Below are positions 1,409 to 19,109 of a stretch of DNA of 43,551 nt, piece by piece. This stretch comes from a virus: IMG/VR virus record IMGVR_UViG_3300034160_000069, positions 1 through 43,551 of that record; one strand, written 5' to 3'. A program made the position numbers and the translations under genes. Numbering within the stretch: position 1 is the stretch's first letter; each line of letters starts with the position of its first letter. The notes under the pieces are model-generated. The model searched no databases, had not been told where the DNA came from, and saw nothing but the letters and a program-made list of their open reading frames with translations.

Positions 1409-3961
1409 TCAAAAATCAATCGGGTCATGCTCATCTCCCGTCGTTTGACTCCCGTTGACCCCGTTTGCCAGCGCCCGCGGCCCTGGCCGATACCCTCGCA
1501 CCCGCTCCCCGTCCTGTCGTGGTCGGGTGTTGCGCCATCCCAGCGCCTGGACGATCATCCCCACCCGGGTTTGCTCCGGCTTCTTCATGTCTTTCGCCGT
1601 GAAGCTCAACGCGTTCTCCATGATCGCGTCCATCGTAACAAAGACTTGGGCGCGTTGCTCCGGTCGTAACCCCACCAGGCGCCGCGCCAGATACGACTGT
1701 ATCCGCCACTCCCACACGTCCCCGGCCACCCGGTCGCCTTGCTGCTCCGCGAGCACGGCCTTCTCTTCGTCGGTCTCCGCGTACCACCGTTCCCCGCGGG
1801 CAAAGCGCATCTGGGCTTCAGCCCAGAGTTGATCGCGGACCTCACCAAGACCGACGATATCGATGTCACCACAGGCCACCGGCCAATACCGCCGATTGCC
1901 CGTCAGATCGGACAGATACTCCGACTGGTTGGTGGTGCCGGCCATCACGGATTGGCGCGGAAACCGCGCCTGTCGATGCCCATACGGCACCCGAAAGCGA
2001 TCCTCCGACGACGAGAAATAGGCTTTGGCCGTACGCATATCCGCCTTGTTCATCGCATCCAATTCGGCCAGTTCAATACACCACACCCCTTGCATCGCCA
2101 ACATCGCATCTTTCGAGCCGATATCGATGCGCGTATCCGAGAACCAGTCCGGCGAATACAGCACCTTCAAGGCGGTCGATTTCAGCACGCCCTGTTCCCC
2201 TTCCAGGATCAAGACGTTATCCGCCTTGCATCCGGGTCGACGAATCCGCGCAATTGACTGGATCATCCACCAGGTGCCGACCCACGACAGATACCGATCG
2301 CGCTCCGCGAGGGCACTATCCGACAGTCCGGGATCATCCCGCGCGTGCCCCGCGCCCAGATACACCTGCAACCACGTATGCAGCCGCTGGCGTCCATCCC
2401 ACACCAACGCATCCAGATAGTCGCGAATCGGATGAAAGCGATTGGCCAAGGCCACGCCAAGGACAGCGTCGGCAATGTCGGTCTTCTTCGGCTCGAAGCG
2501 GAAACGCTCCGCGAGCCAATGCCGCAATTCGGTGTCGTGCGCGTCGGTCCATTCCCCCCGCGCAGCGTTCGCAAACGGCGGGTCCGTTCGTGCGATAATC
2601 CGCTGTGAGAAATCGCAATAGGCGAGACACCCCGTCCACTCCGGGACGTTCGCGATGATCTCGCGCACATTGTAGGCCGTGCCGCGAATCACCCCCTTGT
2701 CGGTATACATCAACCGATCGGCCCAAGGCGGGCGTCCCGCGGGCGCATCCGGTCCGCCGGGCGCCCCAGCGGCAGGAGGAGGCGGCGGCGGCCCGGACGG
2801 CGCCGCCTCAGCCGGCCCCGTGGGCGCATCGACCGGCATTCCATGCTCATCCAGACACACCGCCCACCCGTTCAGCGGCTGCTCCGGATCAAACGAGGGC
2901 GGGACCTCCTGCCCAGCAGGAGGCGGCGCCGACTCCGGTGAGCGGTTTCGCCACCCCAGATGCACCGGATCGATGCCGATCTGGTGACACAGCCACAGGG
3001 CCGCCTCCGCTGGCGTGGTTGGCGATCCCCACTCCAAGACCAGATCGATCGGGGTCTTCCCCCGCTCCTCGCCCCAATCCTGGATCCCGGCCGGAATGAT
3101 CGACAAATCCTCTTCCAGATCCCGCCCGAGCGCCTTCGACGTGACGCGGTACCCGTCGTGATACGACCGCGCGGCCGGCAGCAGCACCGGCACCCACGCC
3201 GGCAGCGCGGCCAGCGCCTTGGTGTTCACCTTCGCGAAGAACGAGGAGGCCGCGGCGGGCGGGTGGTCCTGCCCATTCCCCCCCCGCGCGGCCCGCGGGA
3301 CAGGTGCCGCCTGCGGATCGACCGCCACCAACGCCAGCAACCAGGGCGGCGCCGTCGCGATCGGGCACGACTCTGGATCCCGGCCGGGCGCCCAGGTGTA
3401 GCACCCGCCCGCCGCCAACGCCGACCCCGGCAGAATCACATAGCCGCCGTCCCCGCGCACATCGAGCCCCGGCGTTTCAAGCTGGCCATTGGGCGCGCGT
3501 TCGAAGGGCACCGCCGGATAGCCGCCCGTGCCCCAGGTCTCCGACCCCAGGCCCAAGCGGTGTTGTTTGTTTGGCACCGTCCGCCCGTCGAGCGGGTGAC
3601 GGAAATACAGATGGCGCCCACCGGACCCGGTGATCGCCTCCACCGTGGTCGGCAAGGCGCCGAACACCTCACACAACATCCCGACCGTCGCCGGCCCGGT
3701 GGCACCCTTCTTGACATCCACGTCGAGCACGAAGATGCCGCCCCATACCGCCGCCCCGGTCGGCATCCCGATCAGTGCGCGGCGATACGTGGCCCACCAG
3801 GTGCGGACGGTCGCCTCGTCGAGCGTGGCGTCGTGGAAGCCATTGCCTCCGGCGTCTCGCGGAATCGCCGGTCGGCGTTCCTGACCGCACGGGAACACCG
3901 GCCGGCCAGCCCGGACATGGGCCAGCGCCGCGGCCAGATTGGGCGACTCTGGCGTTGTCAT
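1409..3961 (-). CDS. PrimPol/VirE-type replicative primase-helicase
   Basis: 850 aa, the probable phage replication initiator. The N-terminus (about 1-230) is a bifunctional primase/polymerase (AEP) domain, with the acidic pair in FVLDVDVK and the GSGGRHLYF motif. A Pro/Ala-rich linker spans roughly 340-400. The C-terminal half is a virulence-associated-E superfamily 3-like ATPase. Its Walker A is EGEQGVLKST, its Walker B region is VWCIELAELD, and a sensor-like GTTNQSEYL is followed by GNRRYWPV. The ATG overlaps the stop of the upstream HTH gene by 4 nt (ATGA). A P4-alpha-like role, priming and unwinding at a nearby origin, is inferred; the inverted repeat just past its stop is a candidate origin. 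Confidence 0.9.
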   Translation of the reverse strand: MTTPESPNLAAALAHVRAGRPVFPCGQERRPAIPRDAGGNGFHDATLDEATVRTWWATYRRALIGMPTGAAVWGGIFVLDVDVKKGATGPATVGMLCEVFGALPTTVEAITGSGGRHLYFRHPLDGRTVPNKQHRLGLGSETWGTGGYPAVPFERAPNGQLETPGLDVRGDGGYVILPGSALAAGGCYTWAPGRDPESCPIATAPPWLLALVAVDPQAAPVPRAARGGNGQDHPPAAASSFFAKVNTKALAALPAWVPVLLPAARSYHDGYRVTSKALGRDLEEDLSIIPAGIQDWGEERGKTPIDLVLEWGSPTTPAEAALWLCHQIGIDPVHLGWRNRSPESAPPPAGQEVPPSFDPEQPLNGWAVCLDEHGMPVDAPTGPAEAAPSGPPPPPPAAGAPGGPDAPAGRPPWADRLMYTDKGVIRGTAYNVREIIANVPEWTGCLAYCDFSQRIIARTDPPFANAARGEWTDAHDTELRHWLAERFRFEPKKTDIADAVLGVALANRFHPIRDYLDALVWDGRQRLHTWLQVYLGAGHARDDPGLSDSALAERDRYLSWVGTWWMIQSIARIRRPGCKADNVLILEGEQGVLKSTALKVLYSPDWFSDTRIDIGSKDAMLAMQGVWCIELAELDAMNKADMRTAKAYFSSSEDRFRVPYGHRQARFPRQSVMAGTTNQSEYLSDLTGNRRYWPVACGDIDIVGLGEVRDQLWAEAQMRFARGERWYAETDEEKAVLAEQQGDRVAGDVWEWRIQSYLARRLVGLRPEQRAQVFVTMDAIMENALSFTAKDMKKPEQTRVGMIVQALGWRNTRPRQDGERVRGYRPGPRALANGVNGSQTTGDEHDPIDF

Positions 3962-4407
3962 GCGCTCCTCACATGCTTCCGCGCCAAGCGCTCCCAGGTC
4001 CGCACGCCAAGCTGATGCTCGATCATCCGCGCCTGATGGGCGGCGGCCGTACGCGCATCGTTCTCGGCACGCTTCGCCGCGAGGCGCGCATCACGGGCCG
4101 CCTTCGCGTCCAAACCGGCATCTTGACGCAACGCCTCCAACGCCCGCTTGGCCGCGCTGACCTCGCTCTGTACCGGGCGCGGCCCACGGGCCGCGGGAGC
4201 CGTGGGCTCCGGACCCGGCTTGGGGTACTGACCCCACGACGCGCCGCGGGGCTTGCTCACCAGCGCCGGATCGAGCGTGCGCAAATGCAGGCTCAACGTC
4301 GTGCGCGAGGTGCCGAGCCGAGCCGCGATGACGCGCAGCAGCTCGCCACGGACGCGCGCCGCGATGATCTCGGCATCGATCTGCGGGGTCCAGGGATACG
4401 GCGTCAT
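3958..4407 (-). CDS. HTH protein with charged helical tail
   Basis: 149 aa. Residues about 8-45 (WTPQIDAEIIAARVRGELL, then IAARLGTSRTTLSLHLRTL) form a helix-turn-helix like the GcrA/Trp-type modules common in phage replication regions. The C-terminal half is an Ala/Arg/Lys-rich helical region, possibly coiled coil. ATG 4407 is chosen because it overlaps the stop of the preceding 31-aa ORF by 4 nt and places the HTH at the N-terminus. It is translationally coupled to the primase-helicase. It may bind DNA at the origin or regulate the operon; neither is shown. Confidence 0.7.
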   Translation of the reverse strand: MTPYPWTPQIDAEIIAARVRGELLRVIAARLGTSRTTLSLHLRTLDPALVSKPRGASWGQYPKPGPEPTAPAARGPRPVQSEVSAAKRALEALRQDAGLDAKAARDARLAAKRAENDARTAAAHQARMIEHQLGVRTWERLARKHVRSA

Positions 4408-4499
4408 GACCGCACCCCCTCGACCAGTCCCCACCCCAGCACGCCCGCCCAGATCACCAGATCGAGCAGCCACCACCGGTCACGCTGCCACCACGCCAT
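4404..4499 (-). CDS. 31-aa predicted single-span membrane peptide
   Basis: Short ORF that starts MAWWQRDRWW, continues as a hydrophobic stretch (LLDLVIWAGVLGWGLV) and ends EGVRS. It is packed with 1 nt between the upstream stop and its ATG and a 4-nt ATGA overlap with the downstream HTH gene, which argues for real translation. The Trp/Arg-rich N-terminus and single hydrophobic helix suggest an inner-membrane peptide. The function is unknown. Confidence 0.5.
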   Translation of the reverse strand: MAWWQRDRWWLLDLVIWAGVLGWGLVEGVRS

Positions 4500-4500
4500 C

Positions 4501-4692
4501 TTAGGCATCTCCCAGCAAGCGGTTGAGCCACCGGGCCACCAACACGTCGGGCGTCGTGTCCAACTCCGCGGCGAGGCGGCTCAGCCGCTGCACCAGGTCA
4601 GGATCACGGATGATCAAATGTCCATCACGGAGGACGAGATCGGCAGGCCCGATAAGGGCCTCTGCGGGGTCGGTCGGCGGTATGTCCATCAC
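4501..4692 (-). CDS. Small hypothetical protein
   Basis: 63 aa, not recognised. The C-terminal half (LVQRLSRLAAELDTTPDVLV) is predicted helical and resembles the helical part of ribbon-helix-helix proteins. It may be a small regulator or an antitoxin-like protein. It starts with tandem ATGs (4692, 4689). It sits between the RHH gene and the membrane peptide in a compact leftward operon. Confidence 0.5.
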   Translation of the reverse strand: MMDIPPTDPAEALIGPADLVLRDGHLIIRDPDLVQRLSRLAAELDTTPDVLVARWLNRLLGDA

Positions 4693-4719
4693 GGGGCCTC
4701 GCTAGGTCTGAGCCAGGGG

Positions 4720-4917
4720 CTAAGCGGCCCTTCGCTCGGGCAACATTGATTGATCTAATTCGGCTTCCAGCGCGGCCAGGGCGCGCACGATCAGCTCACG
4801 CGCGACCACGGCCCGCGGCGCATCGCGGGCGGCGGCCAAGGCGCACAGCCGGGCCATCTGGCCCGGCAAGAGCCGGACTTTGATTTCAGCGACATGCAAA
4901 TCAGCTTCGGGGTCCAT
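4720..4917 (-). CDS. Ribbon-helix-helix DNA-binding protein
   Basis: 65 aa with an Arc/CopG-like plan. A beta strand (VAEIKVRLLP) is followed by two helices (QMARLCALAAARDAPRAVVA and ELIVRALAALEAELD). The strand-helix-helix order and size fit a dimeric RHH repressor. It is the first gene past the leftward terminator at 4973-4999, so it may be made only on read-through or from an unrecognised local promoter. Its target is unknown; control of the replication operon is likely. Confidence 0.65.
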   Translation of the reverse strand: MDPEADLHVAEIKVRLLPGQMARLCALAAARDAPRAVVARELIVRALAALEAELDQSMLPERRAA

Positions 4918-5233
4918 GGGGCGTTTCTATCCGCACCCGGCCCAGTGGCCAGGCGCACACGTGACAGGACACAAAAAGCCCGCGGCGCGACCGCCGCGGA
5001 CAACCGCTGTCGCGGCGTACGCGACGAGGAGGACAGGGGAGCGGACCGGCCGGGGCCGTTCCGTGGGAAAAGGGGCGCTGGTGGCGCAGCGCGAGACGTC
5101 GTGGTGGGCTCCACCCTGGGGCAGAACAGGCGTGCGCCCGCGGCCATCGCGGGATTCCGTGAACACCGCCATGCCCAGGGCGGTGCATCGCCAATCACAC
5201 AGGGACGACAGGAGCCCAAGGTGTGATTCGAAG
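4918..5233 (-). other. 316-bp leader with no confident gene
   Basis: This stretch lies between the Cro-like and RHH genes. It contains the terminator at 4973-4999. Open leftward frames cross it: one starts at 5194 and one at 5280, and the latter ends in ...GFLCPVT, CAPGHWAGCG. They vaguely recall Ash-type prophage proteins but overlap the terminator and lack a clear RBS. No gene is called. It may be an untranslated antitermination leader. Confidence 0.4.
4973..4999 (-). terminator. Leftward rho-independent terminator after the Cro-like gene
   Basis: On the minus strand, CCGCGGC-GGTCGC-GCCGCGG is followed by GC and a five-T run (A4973-A4977 on the plus strand). It lies between the Cro-like gene and the RHH/replication genes, so expression downstream would need read-through, antitermination or a new promoter. 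The position is analogous to lambda early terminators. Confidence 0.7.
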
Positions 5234-5569
5234 TCATGCGGTGGGGCCTTCGTCCGTCGCGGCCGGGTGGCGCCGGTCATCCATGCGACGGTCGGTGCGG
5301 CGGCGGTCGACGGTCAGCGCCTCATCCTCACTGGCCGTCTGCCCTTGGTCCGGCACTACGCCGGGGGCGGGGCCGAAGATGTCGGGTCTCAGGTCGTGGA
5401 CCGTTACGGCGCCTTCAGTGGCGGCCTGGATAGCAAGACACCGCGTTGGCGCAACCGGGCGTTTATTCGTAACCATTTGATATAGATACGCAGGAGATAT
5501 CTCCAGGTCCTTTGCCAGGGACCGCCGGCCACCGCTCGGCAACGAATCGTAGTAAGTGCGAATATCCAT
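5234..5569 (-). CDS. Cro-like HTH regulator (YdaS-like)
   Basis: 111 aa from ATG 5569. Residues about 1-60 form a compact HTH: MDIRTYYDSLPSGGRRSLAK, then DLEISPAYLYQMVTNKRPV, then TRCLAIQAATEGAVT and LRPDIFGP, the layout of Cro/YdaS proteins. The tail from about residue 70 is low-complexity and charged. The upstream ATG at 5605 is rejected because it lies inside the promoter and operators. The gene diverges from the CI-like gene across a 73-bp operator region, so it is the lytic-side regulator of the switch by position. Confidence 0.75.
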   Translation of the reverse strand: MDIRTYYDSLPSGGRRSLAKDLEISPAYLYQMVTNKRPVAPTRCLAIQAATEGAVTVHDLRPDIFGPAPGVVPDQGQTASEDEALTVDRRRTDRRMDDRRHPAATDEGPTA

Positions 5570-5576
5570 GCTCAAA

Positions 5577-5605
5577 AATATAGCCTTAGCTACATCATAT
5601 TGCAA
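5577..5605 (-). promoter_or_regulatory. Leftward early promoter (PL-like)
   Basis: On the minus strand, TTGCAA (5605-5600), a 17-nt spacer and TATATT (5582-5577) make a near-consensus sigma-70 promoter aimed at the Cro-like gene. Operator 5581-5592 overlaps the -10. Operator 5606-5617 abuts the -35. Confidence 0.8.
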
Positions 5606-5632
5606 TAGCCAGGGCTACACTAGCGCTTGCTA
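5581..5632. promoter_or_regulatory. Three TAGC-N4-GCTA operators between CI-like and Cro-like genes
   Basis: The 12-mers TAGCCTTAGCTA (5581-5592), TAGCCAGGGCTA (5606-5617) and TAGCGCTTGCTA (5621-5632) share the dyad TAGC-N4-GCTA. Starts are 25 and 15 bp apart. The same dyad recurs at 9614 and 9639. They are probably bound by the CI-like and/or Cro-like protein. The third site lies just upstream of the CI-like ATG (5643), where it could give autoregulation. Confidence 0.85.
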
Positions 5633-5642
5633 TTGTATCGCC

Positions 5643-6059
5643 ATGTCCAGACGTGATCGCCTTCGGCTATTGGTAGACACCCGCGCCCATGGCAACCAGG
5701 CGGCGTTTGCTCTCCTGGTGCATAGAACACCTCCTGTGATCTGGCAATACCTGAGCGGACATAGAGAGATGGGAGAAAAACTAGCCCGTCATATCGAACG
5801 ATGTCTGCGGCTGCCTACAGGATGGATGGATCAGCCCAACGACGAGACTACCCAGCCTACATCTCCGGCCGCCCCCGCGCCGGACGCCCCGCCGGGCGGG
5901 ACTAAGGCGCACAATCTGGACACCCTGATGGCCAGCGCCTCTCCCCGTTCGCTCGATGCCATAAAGCGAATCGCCGCCGCAGCCGATGCCGGGCGCCTCA
6001 CCGAGGCCGATGTGGCGTTGCTGAATCAAATCGCGGAACGCTTTGCCCGAAAGGAGTAA
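5643..6059 (+). CDS. CI-like lysogeny repressor without peptidase domain
   Basis: 138 aa from ATG 5643. The N-terminal HTH (RDRLRLLVDTRAHGNQAAF, then TPPVIWQYLSGHREMGEKLA and IERCLRLPTGWMD) has the 'GWMD' ending typical of phage repressors. A Pro/Ala linker leads to a short helical C-terminus that probably dimerises. No LexA/S24-like peptidase is present, so RecA-stimulated self-cleavage is not expected and induction must work differently. The stop is 2 nt before the HipA-like ATG, with AAGGAG in the last codons, so repressor and cargo are probably co-transcribed in the lysogen. Which divergent protein is CI and which Cro is inferred from sequence style and position. Confidence 0.7.
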   Translation: MSRRDRLRLLVDTRAHGNQAAFALLVHRTPPVIWQYLSGHREMGEKLARHIERCLRLPTGWMDQPNDETTQPTSPAAPAPDAPPGGTKAHNLDTLMASASPRSLDAIKRIAAAADAGRLTEADVALLNQIAERFARKE

Positions 6060-6061
6060 CC

Positions 6062-6820
6062 ATGGAACCCGTCGGCTTTGCCACCCTGTACTTGAAGCCG
6101 CGGCCGGTCGGCGACCTGGGGAACGTGACTCCCTTGTGGTATGGCGACGCGCTCACGCCCACCGGCGACGTGCGCCTCTATGTCAAACAGGCCCCGCCCG
6201 GCGAAATCCTTGCAGAATGCCTGTGCGCTGTCTTGGGCAGCGCCTTGGGGCTTCCGGTCCCGCGGGTCTTTCTGGTACATGACCCCGCGGCCTGGATCGG
6301 CAGCCGCCTCTTGGTGGGCAGCGAAGACGCGGGGATGCCCTCCTTGCGCCATCATCTTGATCGCGCTGCTCCCGGCTTGACGGCGGCCCTCGCCGCCTGG
6401 CCCCAACTGCATACCGTCGCGCTGTTTGACGAGTGGATCGCCAACCCCGACCGCAACCAAGGCAACCTGCTCTGGGATGCCGCCGACCAGTGGCTGTTGA
6501 TCGACCATGCCCGCGCCTTGGGCGCCTGGCCGCCCGGTGCCCCGGTGCCCGATCCGGAGCATCCGGAAGTCAATCAGCTCGCCGCCGTCGTGCTGGCCCT
6601 GGAAGGGGACTTAGGCCCGCAGCGACTGCGCAAGCACGCCGCCCCCTTCGGGGCCACATGTCGCAAGATTGATCCTCAGCAAACCTTGGAAGCGGCCCGC
6701 TGCCACACGCTGGGCATGGTCGAGCGCGCCGCCCATACGCTATCCTTCCTGGAACGCCGCATCGACTGCCTGCCCGCGCTGCTGGCGCGCCACGGGCGCC
6801 AGGGGGAACTCAATCTATGA
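6062..6820 (+). CDS. HipA-like Ser/Thr kinase-fold protein
   Basis: 252 aa. The core motif (FDEWIANPDRNQGNLLW, then WLLIDHARALG) matches the catalytic and metal-binding loops of HipA-type kinases: Asp, then D-x-N-x-GN, then a DHA in place of DFG. The N-terminal part (LYLKPRP, VRLYVKQAP, LAECLCAVLGSALGLPVPRV) fits the HipA-like phosphate-loop and Lys/Glu region. It is shorter than E. coli HipA (about 440 aa), so it is a compact relative. It sits 2 nt downstream of the CI-like repressor and overlaps the next gene by 4 nt. It could be a toxin or abortive-infection effector expressed from the prophage; substrate and activity are unknown. Confidence 0.75.
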   Translation: MEPVGFATLYLKPRPVGDLGNVTPLWYGDALTPTGDVRLYVKQAPPGEILAECLCAVLGSALGLPVPRVFLVHDPAAWIGSRLLVGSEDAGMPSLRHHLDRAAPGLTAALAAWPQLHTVALFDEWIANPDRNQGNLLWDAADQWLLIDHARALGAWPPGAPVPDPEHPEVNQLAAVVLALEGDLGPQRLRKHAAPFGATCRKIDPQQTLEAARCHTLGMVERAAHTLSFLERRIDCLPALLARHGRQGELNL

Positions 6821-7704: not shown

Positions 7705-7985
7705 ATACCCCCGCCTTGCTACTTGCTCCCTGGGCACCGGACCAGGTCGCGCGTCTGGACGAACTGCAACGCGGCGAGCGTTACGGACATCCCTACACCT
7801 GCCCCGAACGCGGCGATGGACGCCACCATGACAACGGACACGACCTCGGATGCCTTGTCCCTACGGCGACCGGATGGGTCTGCTCGGACTGCACCTATAC
7901 CCAAGGCTGGGCCTTTGCGTCCACCATGGATGCGCCCCGCCTCACGGACCTGATCGCCAAGATGGCACCTGCCGCGGCAGATTGA
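7701..7985 (+). CDS. Small Cys/His-rich zinc-binding-like protein
   Basis: 94 aa. A Cys/His cluster (YTCPERGDGRHHDNGHDLGC, then GWVCSDCTYTQGW) suggests one zinc ribbon. Short proteins with this 'PTATGWVCxDC' ending are frequent in phage accessory regions. ATG 7701 overlaps the stop of the 295-aa gene (ATGA). It belongs to the same rightward operon as the HipA-like kinase. It may bind nucleic acid or protein; function unknown. Confidence 0.65.
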   Translation: MNTPALLLAPWAPDQVARLDELQRGERYGHPYTCPERGDGRHHDNGHDLGCLVPTATGWVCSDCTYTQGWAFASTMDAPRLTDLIAKMAPAAAD

Positions 7986-13525: not shown

Positions 13526-13827
13526 CACGCACGTACTTCGCCATCGGCTGCTGCCAACACACGCGGTCTTGCGGCGCTGCAAAGTTCGGCGATTCGAGAA
13601 GCCATGTCTGCTCGCCGGAGTTCTCGAACCTCGATCTTGTCAAACACTGGCTTGCCGGGCTTTACAGGCATGAACGTCTTTGCCGTAATTGCCTGCGGCC
13701 GATCAGTCCGCGCAAGTTCGCGTTCCGTTACTTCGATGTCGGCGCGCTGTACAGCTACGCAGCCGACGAGACCGAAATCCCCATGCTGGGCTGGTGGCCT
13801 GATGGGTTGGAACGGGAGGTCGTTTGA
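13522..13827 (+). CDS. Cys-rich hypothetical protein
   Basis: 101 aa, unrecognised. Cys residues lie in FAIGCCQHTRSCG, HVCSPEF and RLCRNCLRPI, so a zinc site is plausible. The C-terminus is aromatic (FAFRYFDVGALYSYAA, MLGWWPDG). Overlaps of 4 nt upstream and 1 nt downstream place it firmly in the operon. Confidence 0.6.
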   Translation: MTRTYFAIGCCQHTRSCGAAKFGDSRSHVCSPEFSNLDLVKHWLAGLYRHERLCRNCLRPISPRKFAFRYFDVGALYSYAADETEIPMLGWWPDGLEREVV

Positions 13828-14126
13828 TGCACGATTTCTTGACAGCGGCGCAGGCGGCGGAAATGCTGGGGCTGTCGGCGGCGGACTTCGCGGCGCGGGC
13901 GCCAGGGGTGGGGATCGTGCCCTTTGCGTTTCTAGGCGCGATCCTGTATCGACGGGCGGATTTAATCGCGGCAGCAGAGGCAGCATGGCGGGGATCTACA
14001 AGCGTGGGCAATCCTGGTATCTCTCGTACGTCGAGGGCGGACGCCAGGTCCGCCGCTCTCTCGGTGCAGTTACCGCGTCCGAAGCCCAGGCGGCGCGGGT
14101 CGCCCATGAAAGCCGATGTGCAGTAG
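13827..14126 (+). CDS. Excisionase/AlpA-like winged-helix protein
   Basis: 99 aa, starting MHDFLTAAQAAEMLGLSAAD, a MerR/AlpA-type first helix-turn-helix. Then a short wing (VGIVPFAFLGAILYRRADLI) and a helix complete a DNA-binding unit by residue about 55. The remaining 45 residues are read from inside the 5' end of the integrase gene in another frame (142-nt overlap) and look unconstrained. By position it should be the directionality factor for the integrase. The HTH part is convincing; the role is inferred. Confidence 0.6.
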   Translation: MHDFLTAAQAAEMLGLSAADFAARAPGVGIVPFAFLGAILYRRADLIAAAEAAWRGSTSVGNPGISRTSRADARSAALSVQLPRPKPRRRGSPMKADVQ

Positions 14127-15007
14127 CCGCGGCAGCCGGGCCGACCTTTGCTGAATGGGCGGCGCGCTATGCCACGTGGCACCAAGCCGAGTATCCGGAC
14201 AGTTATTTCCGGGTCGAACAGATTTTGCGCACGCAGTTGATCCCGGCGTTTGGGATGCTGCCGTTGATGGCGATTGATCGGGCGGCGGTGGAAGCCTTCA
14301 AGGCGCGGCGGCTGGATCAGGTCGCGGCGGGCACGGTGGTGAAGGAATTGCGCACGTTGCAGGCGGCGCTGAATGCGGCAGTATCGTGGGAGGTGATTCC
14401 GCGCAACCCGGTCGCCAAGGTCAAAGCCCCGCGGGATTTAGTCAGCCGTCCGCCGCGGTGGTATTCGCGCGACGAGTTGGCGCTGCTCTATGCGGCGGAA
14501 ATGGCGGTGCCCCAATGCACGACGCCGGCGGATGGGGAGGCGCATCGGGTGTATCGGTGGGCGTGGCAATTGATGGCGAATACCGGGTTGCGACGGACGG
14601 AAGCCCTCCAAGTGGAATGGCGCGATATCGGGGCGGAAGAGCTCGCGGTGCGCTCAGAGGAGGGGGCGCGGACGAAGAGCGGGCATTGGCGGGCGATTCC
14701 GCTGAGCCGCGGGGCGCGCGAGGCGCTTGAGGGGTTGGCGCCGGTCGGGCGGCGGCGCGGGTGGGTGTTGCCGCAGATTGCCGGGACGAGTTTGAGTCGG
14801 GCGTTTACCCGGACGTTGGCGCGGGCTTCATTGGATGGGCATATCCACTGCTTGCGCCATACCTATTGCTCGCACTTGGTGCAGGCGGGGGTGCCGTTGC
14901 GGACGGTCCAAGTGCTGGCAGGACATGCCAGTGCGCGGACTACCGAGCGTTACGCGCACTTGGCGCCGAGTATTTTGCGGGAGACGATTGCGGCGTTGGA
15001 TCTTTAG
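13985..15007 (+). CDS. int: Tyrosine-recombinase phage integrase
   Basis: 340 aa from ATG 13985 (MAGIYKRGQSWYLSYVEGGR, an Arm-type DNA-binding start). A core-binding SAM-like domain lies about 45-130 (FAEWAARYATWHQAEYP...). The catalytic domain shows the canonical residues: Arg in NTGLRRTEALQVEW, H-x-x-R in HCLRHTYCSHL, His in LAGHASARTT and the nucleophile Tyr in ERYAHL. It integrates the phage, most likely at the tRNA-Glu site at 17002-17050. Base use is GC-rich like its neighbours. It ends about 2 kb from attP rather than beside it. Confidence 0.95.
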   Translation: MAGIYKRGQSWYLSYVEGGRQVRRSLGAVTASEAQAARVAHESRCAVAAAAGPTFAEWAARYATWHQAEYPDSYFRVEQILRTQLIPAFGMLPLMAIDRAAVEAFKARRLDQVAAGTVVKELRTLQAALNAAVSWEVIPRNPVAKVKAPRDLVSRPPRWYSRDELALLYAAEMAVPQCTTPADGEAHRVYRWAWQLMANTGLRRTEALQVEWRDIGAEELAVRSEEGARTKSGHWRAIPLSRGAREALEGLAPVGRRRGWVLPQIAGTSLSRAFTRTLARASLDGHIHCLRHTYCSHLVQAGVPLRTVQVLAGHASARTTERYAHLAPSILRETIAALDL

Positions 15008-15794: not shown

Positions 15795-16349
15795 CTAGCG
15801 TGCTATCCGCGCGATCCACTCAATCGGACGAGACGATGTTCGGTCAAATGAGATGTCCCCAATAATGTTCTCGACATTGAACGTCCGATGATCCTTTCGG
15901 AGATGGCAAATTCCGTGCAAATAGAATCCGCCATGACTGGAGTCTTGAGAGATGCGCGTGACAGTGACGGCGCGGCGCAGGACTTCGCCTTTCTGGTTCA
16001 GATAAGTGAACTCCACCAAGGTGCCCGCGCCATGCCAGACGGTTCGCAGTCGCTTGTCGAAGCGCTCGACGGGGGTCGGTGGGCGATAGAACCGTGTCAC
16101 CCAATCAGCCGGCGGCGGGGTCGGGTCAGCTTCGAACTTCACCGGGGGGGCGCTGTAGCGCTCCCGTGCTCGCTGCTTCGCGTTTTTCGTGGTGCGTACA
16201 CTGCCGATGGCCTTCAAGCCGAACAGGATCGCCCCAATGGCGGAGAGCATCACCAACGCGACAAGCATGTTGCCATCGCTGGCGATTCCCCAGGCGGCAA
16301 TCAGCATGACAATCAAGCCAATGAGGACGCCTAGCAAAATGTTGCGCAT
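15795..16349 (-). CDS. Membrane-anchored WYL-like protein
   Basis: 184 aa from ATG 16349 (a TTG at 16355 is a less likely start). Two transmembrane helices (LLGVLIGLIVMLIAAWGIA and NMLVALVMLSAIGAILFGL) are followed by a basic linker. A C-terminal beta-rich domain (LVEFTYLNQKGEVLRRAVTV, then YLHGICHLRKDHRTFNVENI) has the strand order and HGICHLRKDHRTF pattern of WYL domains. WYL domains usually sense ligands in regulators, often in defence loci, and a membrane-anchored form without HTH is unusual. It converges on copy A and its 5' end overlaps the start of the KilA-N gene by 11 nt on the opposite strand. Confidence 0.7.
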   Translation of the reverse strand: MRNILLGVLIGLIVMLIAAWGIASDGNMLVALVMLSAIGAILFGLKAIGSVRTTKNAKQRARERYSAPPVKFEADPTPPPADWVTRFYRPPTPVERFDKRLRTVWHGAGTLVEFTYLNQKGEVLRRAVTVTRISQDSSHGGFYLHGICHLRKDHRTFNVENIIGDISFDRTSSRPIEWIARIAR

Positions 16350-16923
16350 AGCCAAGCACAGTGATCAAATTAAGGCGCTGGTCGAAGAACTTCGTAAGCC
16401 TTTGATTTCAGCCGTTCCTGGAATTCCAGCATCTTATGAAAACAACAACTTAGAGCCGGTCGTCATAGTCAAAGGTGGCAACGCGCAACAAGGCACGTTT
16501 GTCGTCAAGGCGCTGGTCTACGCCTATGGCATGTGGATTAGCCCGGCGTTTCACCTGGCAGTGATCCGGAGCTTTGACGCGCTGCAGACACGGCGCGGGT
16601 CTTACCTGCCGCTTTCGGCAGATCCGCTGGATTCCCCCGACGTGCGGCACGCGATCGAGCGCAAGGCGCACGCGTTAAGCGTGCACGCGTTCGAGTCCCA
16701 CCGGGATTATCTGGAAAACTGGGTGCGCACGCATCCGGACATCAAGGATCGCGCCAGCGTGATCGAACAGATTGAGGCGCTGGAGATCAATGATCGCACC
16801 CACGTGATGGTCGATTATGACTTGCTGTTTGCGGTGACGGGTAACGCCAGGGCGTGCCATCGGATGCAGGCGTTTGCGATCGAGCGCCTGGGCCGCTCGA
16901 TCGGGCGCAACCTCTACGACTAA
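16339..16923 (+). CDS. KilA-N-type protein, N-terminally shortened
   Basis: 194 aa from ATG 16339. It contains the second half of a KilA-N domain (LEPVVIVKG, then GTFVVKALVYAYGMWISPAF and HLAVIRSFDALQ) and a helical C-terminal domain. The usual N-terminal part of KilA-N ('NATDLH...W') is absent. The frame upstream merges into sequence antisense to the WYL gene, so the start may have been lost when that gene arrived. KilA-N proteins bind DNA and are common in large phage and prophage accessory loci. A related fragment lies at 40188-40418. Confidence 0.7.
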   Translation: MLRIAKHSDQIKALVEELRKPLISAVPGIPASYENNNLEPVVIVKGGNAQQGTFVVKALVYAYGMWISPAFHLAVIRSFDALQTRRGSYLPLSADPLDSPDVRHAIERKAHALSVHAFESHRDYLENWVRTHPDIKDRASVIEQIEALEINDRTHVMVDYDLLFAVTGNARACHRMQAFAIERLGRSIGRNLYD

Positions 16924-16957: not shown

Positions 16958-16993
16958 AAAACGCCTGTGTAGTCGCGACTACACAGGCGTTTT
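16958..16993. terminator. 36-bp perfect palindrome, bidirectional terminator
   Basis: AAAACGCCTGTGTAGTCG followed by its exact reverse complement, ending in TTTT on each strand. It terminates the KilA-N transcript rightward and shields the attachment site from leftward read-through of the late operon. It sits 8 nt from the tRNA 3' end. Confidence 0.85.
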
Positions 16994-17001
16994 TCGTAAG
17001 T

Positions 17002-17050
17002 TGGCGTCCCCACGGAGATTCGAACTCCGGTCGCCGCCGTGAAAGGGCGG
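17002..17050 (-). other. attP: 3' half of tRNA-Glu (TTC anticodon)
   Basis: The minus strand reads anticodon stem-loop CCGCCCTTTCACGGCGG, the variable loop, T-arm CCGGAGTTCGAATCTCCG, acceptor TGGGGAC, then GCCA. No D-arm or 5' acceptor strand precedes it: the sequence upstream (17051-17100) is AT-rich and unrelated. It is therefore a tRNA-Glu 3' fragment kept as the crossover site for the integrase. Because phage genes flank both sides, it is attP in a circular or unintegrated genome rather than a junction with host DNA. The exact core boundaries cannot be set without attB. Confidence 0.85.
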
Positions 17051-17150: not shown

Positions 17151-19109
17151 TTACACGGCGAAATTGTACGCGGGCATCTCCGGGGCGGTGCCGATGATGC
17201 GTTGTCCTTGAACCCATACCCAGGCGCCGATGACAGCGATGCCCAGCACGCGCAGGGTGCCGCCGTTGGCGGTCGCACAGGTGACGGTGCCGTCACTATG
17301 TGTTGCGGTGACTTGGGCGAGGGTGGTGGGGGTTTGGGGGAGGAGTGAGAGCAGGCGCTGATAATCGCTCTGGGTTTCGCCAAGCGCCAGGGTCTGGCGG
17401 ATGGTGACGGGGTTGGCACTGCCGCCGCCTTGGACTTGGATCTCAATGGCGGTGCAGGGGGCAGTTTGTCCGCCGTCGAGTTGGATGCGGATGAGGTCGC
17501 CCAGGACGGGGATGGGGAAGTCGGCGCGGGGGTCGACGGCAAGGGTGATGCTGGAGTAACCGATGGGGCGGGCGTGGGCTGCCAGGTGGCGGGCACCCAG
17601 GGCGCGAAGGGCGTCGGTGTGGGTCATCAAGGGGTCGCTGATTTCGGGGGCGAGGGTGGCGCCCGCGGTGCCGGCGCGGTAGACGAGGGCTTGCAGTCCA
17701 CCCACGGCGCCGCCGTAGACGTGGATGCCATCGGCTTGGTCGGGGTAGCGATAGCGGCGGTTGGCGCTGAGGATGGCGGCGGCGGGGATGAGGAGGTCTT
17801 CTTGTCCGGCGCTGATGTCCCAGGGGGCAAGGCGGTGGATGGGGCGCCAGGTGAGTTTACGGTCGGCGGGGTCAGGGTAAAGGAGTCCGCCGGCGGCGGC
17901 GCCAAGGCGGGCGATGGCTTGGATGGGGCTCAGGGCTTGGTAGCTCCAGGCGCCGGCAGGAACCAACCAGTCGGGCACCTCGGTGAGGAGCTCCCAACCG
18001 CCGCCGTAGGGGAGTTCTTGCTCGCCGAGTTGGGCGAGGGTGCGGGCTTGGGTTTCGGTGTAGTCGCGTTGCCGTTGGTAGCGGCTGCTGAGGTAGGCAC
18101 TGCGGCTGCGTCCGCTGACGCTGACGGTGCTGGCGGTGCCGTGGGCGCGTCGTGAATTCCAGTCTTCAGCAAGGAAGATCCAGGTGGCGCCGTTGAGTGC
18201 GATCTCGATTTCGACAGGGTCGTCGCCCTCGGGCTCGATGAGGGCGGCGGCGTTTTGTCCGGTGAGGTCGAGCGCCAGGGTCCATGCCCATTCGGGCATG
18301 GCGAGCCGCAGGGTGGCGGATTTCCAGGGCAGCGGGGTGCGATCGGGGAGGCGGACGCAGGTGAGGGCGTGCAGGATCATGTAGGCGTACCTCGAGGGGA
18401 TGACGCGACGGGAAAAGGGGGTAATCCAGAGGTCACCATCGCCGGTACCGGGGCCGGGGCCGCCGTAGATGACGGGGCGCTCGGTCCAGGGCAACGCCAG
18501 GACGGTGAACGTGTGGCGGATGCGCGGGCGCCAGGGGGTACGGATGCCGCTGTCGAGCGGGCGCCCGGTGTAGGCGGCGGTGGGGATGGCGACGAGGTCG
18601 TCAATGATGGGCGGGCGACGTGGGTCGGTGCCGATCCAGACGGCGAGGTCGATGAGGGGGAAGGGCGGGACGGTGTAGGGCGCGGGCGGTATGAGCGGGG
18701 CGCGCGGGTCGCCGTTGGGACGGTTCCACCAGGTGGGCACGGCGCTGGTGTCGCGGGAGCGGACGTCGGGCCAGTTGATCAGAATGAGCCCGCGGACGGG
18801 GGTGCTGCGGGCGGGCGGTTGGGTTGTGTATGGAGTTTGCGCGGGGCGGTCGCGGTGGCGAAGATCGCGCCAGTGGGGGCTGGTGGGGGCGCTGGCGGGG
18901 CTGGCGGCGGTGGTGCGGGGCTGGACTGCCGCGGTGAGGGCTGCTTGCTGGGCAAGTCCACTGCGCACGGGGGTCTGTTGGTGCTGGCTGTGGGGGTGCA
19001 CCAGGCGCGCGACGTTTGTTTGCGCAAGGACGTCGGCGTGGCGGACGGCGGTCGACGCTGAGTGCATGGGTCCGCGACGCCAGCCGGTGCTGCAGACGGA
19101 TTCAGCCAT
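17151..19109 (-). CDS. Tail tip/host-specificity protein, end of late operon
   Basis: 652 aa. The first about 100 residues are disordered (Pro/Ala/Thr/Arg). The body is beta-rich and repeatedly acid-free/aromatic (VIYGGPGPGTGDGDLWITPF, YAYMILHALTCVRLP, WSYQALSPIQAIARLGAAAG, ADGIHVYGGAVGG). A C-terminal carbohydrate-binding-like part ends EMPAYNFAV. It is the last gene of the leftward late transcript and overlaps the beta-helix gene by 8 nt. Position and composition suggest a baseplate/tip or receptor-binding component of the siphophage tail. No named family is assigned. Confidence 0.65.
   Translation of the reverse strand: MAESVCSTGWRRGPMHSASTAVRHADVLAQTNVARLVHPHSQHQQTPVRSGLAQQAALTAAVQPRTTAASPASAPTSPHWRDLRHRDRPAQTPYTTQPPARSTPVRGLILINWPDVRSRDTSAVPTWWNRPNGDPRAPLIPPAPYTVPPFPLIDLAVWIGTDPRRPPIIDDLVAIPTAAYTGRPLDSGIRTPWRPRIRHTFTVLALPWTERPVIYGGPGPGTGDGDLWITPFSRRVIPSRYAYMILHALTCVRLPDRTPLPWKSATLRLAMPEWAWTLALDLTGQNAAALIEPEGDDPVEIEIALNGATWIFLAEDWNSRRAHGTASTVSVSGRSRSAYLSSRYQRQRDYTETQARTLAQLGEQELPYGGGWELLTEVPDWLVPAGAWSYQALSPIQAIARLGAAAGGLLYPDPADRKLTWRPIHRLAPWDISAGQEDLLIPAAAILSANRRYRYPDQADGIHVYGGAVGGLQALVYRAGTAGATLAPEISDPLMTHTDALRALGARHLAAHARPIGYSSITLAVDPRADFPIPVLGDLIRIQLDGGQTAPCTAIEIQVQGGGSANPVTIRQTLALGETQSDYQRLLSLLPQTPTTLAQVTATHSDGTVTCATANGGTLRVLGIAVIGAWVWVQGQRIIGTAPEMPAYNFAV

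Follow-up and report, generated by a model that had tools for sequence, protein, structure and literature searches.

The window, a 43,551-base IMG/VR virus record with a GC content of 66%, is a linear metagenomic contig, in which a search for end repeats of 8–299 bases found none. It encodes a tyrosine integrase, followed by a KilA-N domain protein, a perfect palindrome and a 49-nt stretch of tRNA sequence, the core (Table 1). The integrase homologues begin at the methionine at position 13985, inside an open frame of 13604–15007, and the R, H and Y columns that are conserved in the alignment with relatives are presumably the catalytic residues. A tyrosine recombinase is encoded near the core. 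On the far side of the core, the minus strand contains tail, tape-measure, endolysin, major capsid, protease, portal and terminase genes.

Table 1. Features of the attP region in the window and of the tRNA-Glu region in the sister-clade records
Feature	Record	Position	Strand	Basis
Tyrosine integrase	Window	13985..15007 (open frame from 13604)	+	PF00589 3.4e-23, phrog_1 3.5e-61, alignment with relatives
KilA-N domain protein between integrase and attP	Window	16189..16923	+	PF04383, phrog_129, homologue in L003
Perfect 36-nt palindrome, A/T runs at both ends	Window	16958..16993	.	Sequence
attP common core, 3′ half of tRNA-Glu(TTC)	Window	17002..17050	-	Sequence, stem pairing, conservation after related integrases
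Anticodon arm (stem-loop-stem; loop 17039-17045), likely crossover region	Window	17034..17050	-	Agreement of attP and host tRNA onward to CCA
Tail protein on far side of attP	Window	17151..19109	-	phrog_6079 7.7e-77; homologue, equivalent position, in L003
Complete tRNA-Glu(TTC)	L097	6134-6210
20-nt anticodon-arm core	L097	6283-6302
Complete tRNA-Glu(TTC)	L095 and L096	6134-6210
20-nt anticodon-arm core	L095 and L096	6285-6304
Complete tRNA-Glu(TTC)	L014	2848-2923
20-nt anticodon-arm core	L014	3012-3031

The tRNA sense of the core is on the minus strand. The reverse complement of window positions 17002–17050 corresponds to the 3′-terminal 49 nt of a tRNA-Glu(TTC) gene, beginning with the first anticodon-stem base and ending with CCA. 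The anticodon arm consists of a fully paired stem (CCGCC/GGCGG, 5/5 pairs) and the loop CTTTCAC, which contains the anticodon TTC. A short variable region connects it to the T-arm (CGGAG-TTCGAAT-CTCCG), whose stem CGGAG/CTCCG is also paired at 5/5 positions, and the acceptor 3′ strand terminates in GCCA. The core matches annotated tRNA-Glu genes in phage-collection records at 86–90%. It covers the tRNA portion from the anticodon arm to the 3′ end and is incomplete as a gene. ARAGORN called no complete tRNA in the 43,551 bases, and no second copy of the core was found in the window (best other ungapped match, 27/49).

The stem pairing and the flanking genes bear out the original prediction of an attP that is formed by the 3′ half of tRNA-Glu, starts exactly at the anticodon stem, includes the CCA end and is flanked by phage genes on both sides. 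The integrase, however, is not adjacent to the core but is separated from it by 1,994 nt that contain the KilA-N gene and the palindrome. Among the loci compared with the window proteins, a KilA-N gene between the integrase and attP is observed only in the window and in the relative L003 (positions 3346–3765). The palindrome probably functions as a two-way terminator, and in the integrated form it would immediately follow the rebuilt tRNA. Around attP, integrase arm sites could not be clearly recognized, and only short two-copy repeat matches were present.

The core is located inside phage DNA because phage genes, including the tail protein gene, occupy both of its sides. Since the tail genes continue past the core and the gene order across it is that of L003, the record represents the unintegrated form, as had been proposed. 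A linear metagenomic contig without end repeats would also be compatible with a tRNA half that marks a prophage end (attL or attR) or an assembly chimaera instead of attP. However, phage structural genes directly follow the core in a gene order identical to that of L003, no host gene was recognized beside the core, and the core is present only once in the window, which together make a prophage end or chimaera very improbable.

Predicted restoration of the host tRNA

The 49-nt stretch is, with high confidence, the common core at the attP of a temperate phage whose tyrosine integrase rebuilds the host tRNA-Glu(TTC), and we infer that the window phage itself lysogenizes. Strand exchange by the integrase between attP and the host tRNA-Glu(TTC) gene would occur at the anticodon arm. 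The host 5′ half and the phage 3′ half would be joined on the integrase side to generate a working tRNA-Glu, and the host's own 3′ half would be displaced to the tail side. The agreement between attP sites and host tRNAs extends from the anticodon arm through the CCA end. Because this agreement begins at the anticodon arm, and because a sister clade of integrases (L014 and L095–L097; see below) retains just the arm and a few bases, we infer that the crossover likely takes place within the arm.

Recombination of attP with three host tRNA genes (from G001, G249 and G003) was modeled in silico. When the host 5′ half was joined to the integrase side of the window, tRNA-Glu(TTC) was called in 3/3 cases. 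The tail-side junction yielded a tRNA call in 0/3 hosts, and attP alone yielded none. Recombination with each of the three host tRNAs thus rebuilds the gene in silico, and the intact tRNA lies on the integrase side only, which supports the claim that the tRNA is restored on insertion.

The presence of the core in host genomes was examined with a class-wide pattern search of 369 genomes that allowed up to three mismatches. Twelve of the 369 genomes contain one copy each, all with 2–3 mismatches, and a backwards control pattern gave no match. The exact 49-nt sequence, for which a search of host genomes had been proposed, is absent from the 369 genomes, and an exact search in IMG/VR gave no match; likewise, no integrated copy of the window phage was found. 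Nine of the 12 core-matching genomes differ from the window core at just two positions, and these two bases, by which the window core departs from the most common host version, form a pair with each other in the T-stem. In the genome locus L015, the T-stem of the 3′ half is also altered yet fully paired. Such paired changes could be a trace of selection for a working rebuilt tRNA or could mirror the true host.

The sister clade appears to replace the host tRNA, and the window phage might by analogy already be tRNA-replacing, with the 3′ half as a leftover and lysogeny dependent on a phage tRNA. The window nevertheless keeps the whole 3′ half with paired stems, the host tRNA-Glu is restored in silico, and no complete tRNA gene is present in the record, which could lack a piece of the genome. 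Replacement by the window phage is therefore highly unlikely.

tRNA-Glu as the target of related integrases

Two IMG/VR scans identified 31 distinct viral contigs with related integrases, of which 24 encode an integrase with at least 36% identity and seven encode a weaker relative (24–34%; L118 at 34% and L008–L013). L094, L098, L099, L102 and L117 are the same contigs as L003–L007 and were counted once. In 18 of the 24 contigs, a tRNA-Glu 3′ half with the same orientation lies downstream of the integrase; these include L114, which was counted here although ARAGORN calls a complete tRNA at that position. The other six contain a complete tRNA-Glu with a short core (L095–L097), a complete tRNA-Glu (L107) or other tRNAs (L103 and L110). 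No core follows the integrase in the weaker relatives (0/7). Among known phages, the most similar integrases reach at most ∼33% identity.

In all of the relatives, the integrase is positioned on the same side of the site as in the window. The distance from the integrase stop codon to the core is 52–73 nt in L004–L007, and the KilA-N gene intervenes in L003 and the window. An alignment of six attP sites displays resemblance only in the tRNA half. Phages can carry tRNA genes, as in L152, and the window's tRNA piece is located 2 kb from the integrase, but the recurrence of the same half with the same cut point after the integrase in 18/24 relatives that are otherwise unlike in sequence, at the short distance seen in L004–L007, leaves next to no room for an origin or role unrelated to integration, whether as the remnant of a phage tRNA gene or as a transcribed tRNA fragment with a separate function.

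In L103 (49% identity; ∼2460–2570) and L110 (41%; ∼4440–4512), the integrase is followed by what appear to be 3′ halves of other tRNAs, oppositely oriented, and the integrase family can thus change its target. Relatives with another target, of the kind expected to speak against the proposed site, are found only at this distance and not among the nearest relatives. In L107, the complete tRNA-Glu begins 2 bases past the integrase stop codon and is followed by Gln, Asn, Thr, Ala and Gly tRNA genes (3999–6072), which may be a host or a phage array.

In a scan of genome contigs, from which the best 80 of 127 loci were kept, the three best loci (L014, L015 and L016) each contain tRNA-Glu(TTC) after the integrase. 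tRNA-Glu(CTC) is found in this position in L017 and L020. A Glu-like tRNA half also follows a distant integrase (35%) in L019 (10794–10840), in the orientation opposite to that of the window. In L015 (G002) and L016 (G003), a complete tRNA-Glu is followed by tRNA-Ala(GGC), which is the arrangement predicted at the junction on the integrase side. Of 399 genomes from the G003 order, three matched in a profile search, namely, G003 itself (L016), G249 and G160, the last with a partial integrase. A related integrase is thus located beside an intact tRNA-Glu(TTC)/tRNA-Ala(GGC) pair in three genome contigs (G002, G003 and G249).

The G249 contig contains, in order, gltX, tRNA-Ala, tRNA-Glu, the integrase and then replication, portal, capsid and tape-measure genes. 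Because phage genes lie behind an integrase that is next to gltX, tRNA-Ala and tRNA-Glu, G249 harbors a prophage at the tRNA-Glu locus. In G002, gltX is located beyond tRNA-Glu and tRNA-Ala, and the contig ends just before the integrase. The G003 element (L131/L132, contig G003:C40) is probably a relic, given that none of the seven tested proteins past the integrase matches a phage family, or else a non-phage island; of four of its proteins given to Pfam, three belong to metabolic families and the fourth also produced a match. In G160, no tRNA-Glu core was detected in the 20 kb read. Related elements at the same tRNA thus comprise the G249 prophage and the integrases beside an intact tRNA-Glu in G002 and G003, but not G160. 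In six relatives' genomes, at most one core per genome was found, the G249 contig contains no second core, and no displaced host 3′ fragment was seen at the far end in any of the relatives, as the contigs end before the far junction. Insertion into host tRNA-Glu(TTC), as originally predicted, is supported by the 18 of 24 viral contigs and by the three genome contigs.

A sister clade with a complete tRNA-Glu and a short core

The integrases of L095, L096 and L014 are 91–98% identical to that of L097. All four records of this clade contain a complete tRNA-Glu(TTC) after the integrase, with the CCA end directed toward the integrase, and in L014 a small gene is inserted between the two. The tRNA-Glu 3′ half is absent, and a short core is found 72–88 nt beyond the complete tRNA-Glu. 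Twenty nucleotides of the short core, CGCCCTTTCACGGCGACAAC, also occur in the tRNA-Glu of the genome bin that contains L014 (G001). The G001 host tRNA-Glu reads GGCGACAAC where three other host tRNAs read GGCGGTAAC. The short core is also present in L151, an ordinary 3′-half attP that was left out of the stem-pairing check, and in L152, a tRNA array.

When the G001 host tRNA was recombined in silico with the short core, no tRNA was called at either junction for 3/3 phages (L014, L095 and L097), and the phage's own tRNA was the sole remaining one. The phage tRNAs of the clade are identical to four host-side tRNAs at 58–64 of 76–77 positions. Their anticodon stems, CCAGC/GCTGG in L097, CTGGC/GCCAG in L095 and L096 and CTGGC/GCCGG in L014, are paired but differ from the core. 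The phage tRNA stretch that matches the core in L097 is 120 nt away from the real core. The altered anticodon stem may keep the phage's own integrase off the phage tRNA.

The genes beyond the core differ between L096 and L097 and include phage families in each, and the module of tRNA and short core thus resides in different genomes. Another contig of the L014 bin carries a tRNA-Glu that is not interrupted, so L014 need not be integrated. A search of 210 genomes from the G001 order detected no lysogen of the sister-clade phages, and G001 itself was the only genome with a member of the clade. Judged from these sequences, the sister clade is a candidate for tRNA-dependent lysogeny.

The direction of change was addressed with an IQ-TREE tree of 35 integrases with a midpoint root and many open deep forks. 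In it, the four replacing phages form the sister group of the window plus L003 (six rows, 100/99), and these six rows group with five more 3′-half phages (eleven rows, 97/89). Since the replacing clade is located inside restoring relatives, rebuilding is the older state next to the four under any root outside them. The replacing type, sampled here by four sequences of which two are identical, appears to be derived from the restoring type. We consider the chances evenly balanced that a switch from rebuilding to replacing occurred within one clade, in which the replacement gene would have taken the former place of the 3′ half and paired anticodon-stem changes would hide the phage tRNA from the phage's own integrase.

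Comparison with known systems

The core is an ordinary anticodon-loop site of a tyrosine integrase and is nothing new in kind. It predicts that this uncultured phage lineage inserts at tRNA-Glu(TTC), a target that corresponds to the gltX/tRNA-Ala/tRNA-Glu locus in two related genome contigs (G002 and G249). In the Islander study, anticodon-centered tRNA sites that rebuild the tRNA are common, with 2083 islands of subsite A (PMC4383910). The window attP resembles subsite A as described there, in that it extends from the tRNA anticodon arm to the tRNA end and integration rebuilds the tRNA. Only its setting differs: the phage lineage is uncultured, and the target is tRNA-Glu(TTC) at the gltX/tRNA-Ala/tRNA-Glu locus.

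By terminase identity, the closest named phages are Pseudomonas phage KT1 (46%) and Marinobacter phage PS3 (44%). In PS3 (L127), as in the window, an integrase gene is followed by a tRNA 3′ fragment and then by tail genes, but the PS3 integrase is a different one, and the PS3 fragment derives from a different tRNA and starts nearer the T-arm. The PS3 fragment is located at ∼7890–7940 after the integrase in an unannotated gap and is probably the attP of PS3, unannotated in the record. A tblastn search of PS3 with the window integrase gave no match at 1e-8.

The replacement of the host tRNA by one from the phage was described in actinobacteriophages in 2024 under the name tRNA-dependent lysogeny (PMC10865867). 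According to that report, the same integrase types occur in phages that restore and in phages that replace the tRNA (Cain and Ximenita, Gaia and Omega), and the evolutionary relation of tRNA-dependent lysogeny to canonical restoring systems is described as not clear. The window and the systems described there both use the tRNA anticodon region as attB. The sister clade displays both of the marks described there, a short core and a cognate phage tRNA. The window displays neither, as its 49-nt core rebuilds the tRNA in silico and no complete tRNA is present, and hence it is not a member. The sister clade involves tRNA-Glu, and L014 is from a gammaproteobacterial bin, whereas the experimental cases of that report are in actinobacteria. 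Similar tRNA replacement is described for Sinorhizobium meliloti prophages (PMC11476347), and it is reported absent from phiLM21-like prophages (PMC12429752). A search for tRNA-Glu cases in the open-access literature found no paper on this integrase clade.

Both designs, restoring and replacing, belong to kinds already known. The comparison of the textbook-type window with its sister clade may matter, as the contrast between restoring and replacing phages gives the evolutionary question a direction in one lineage and provides a simple experimental pair.
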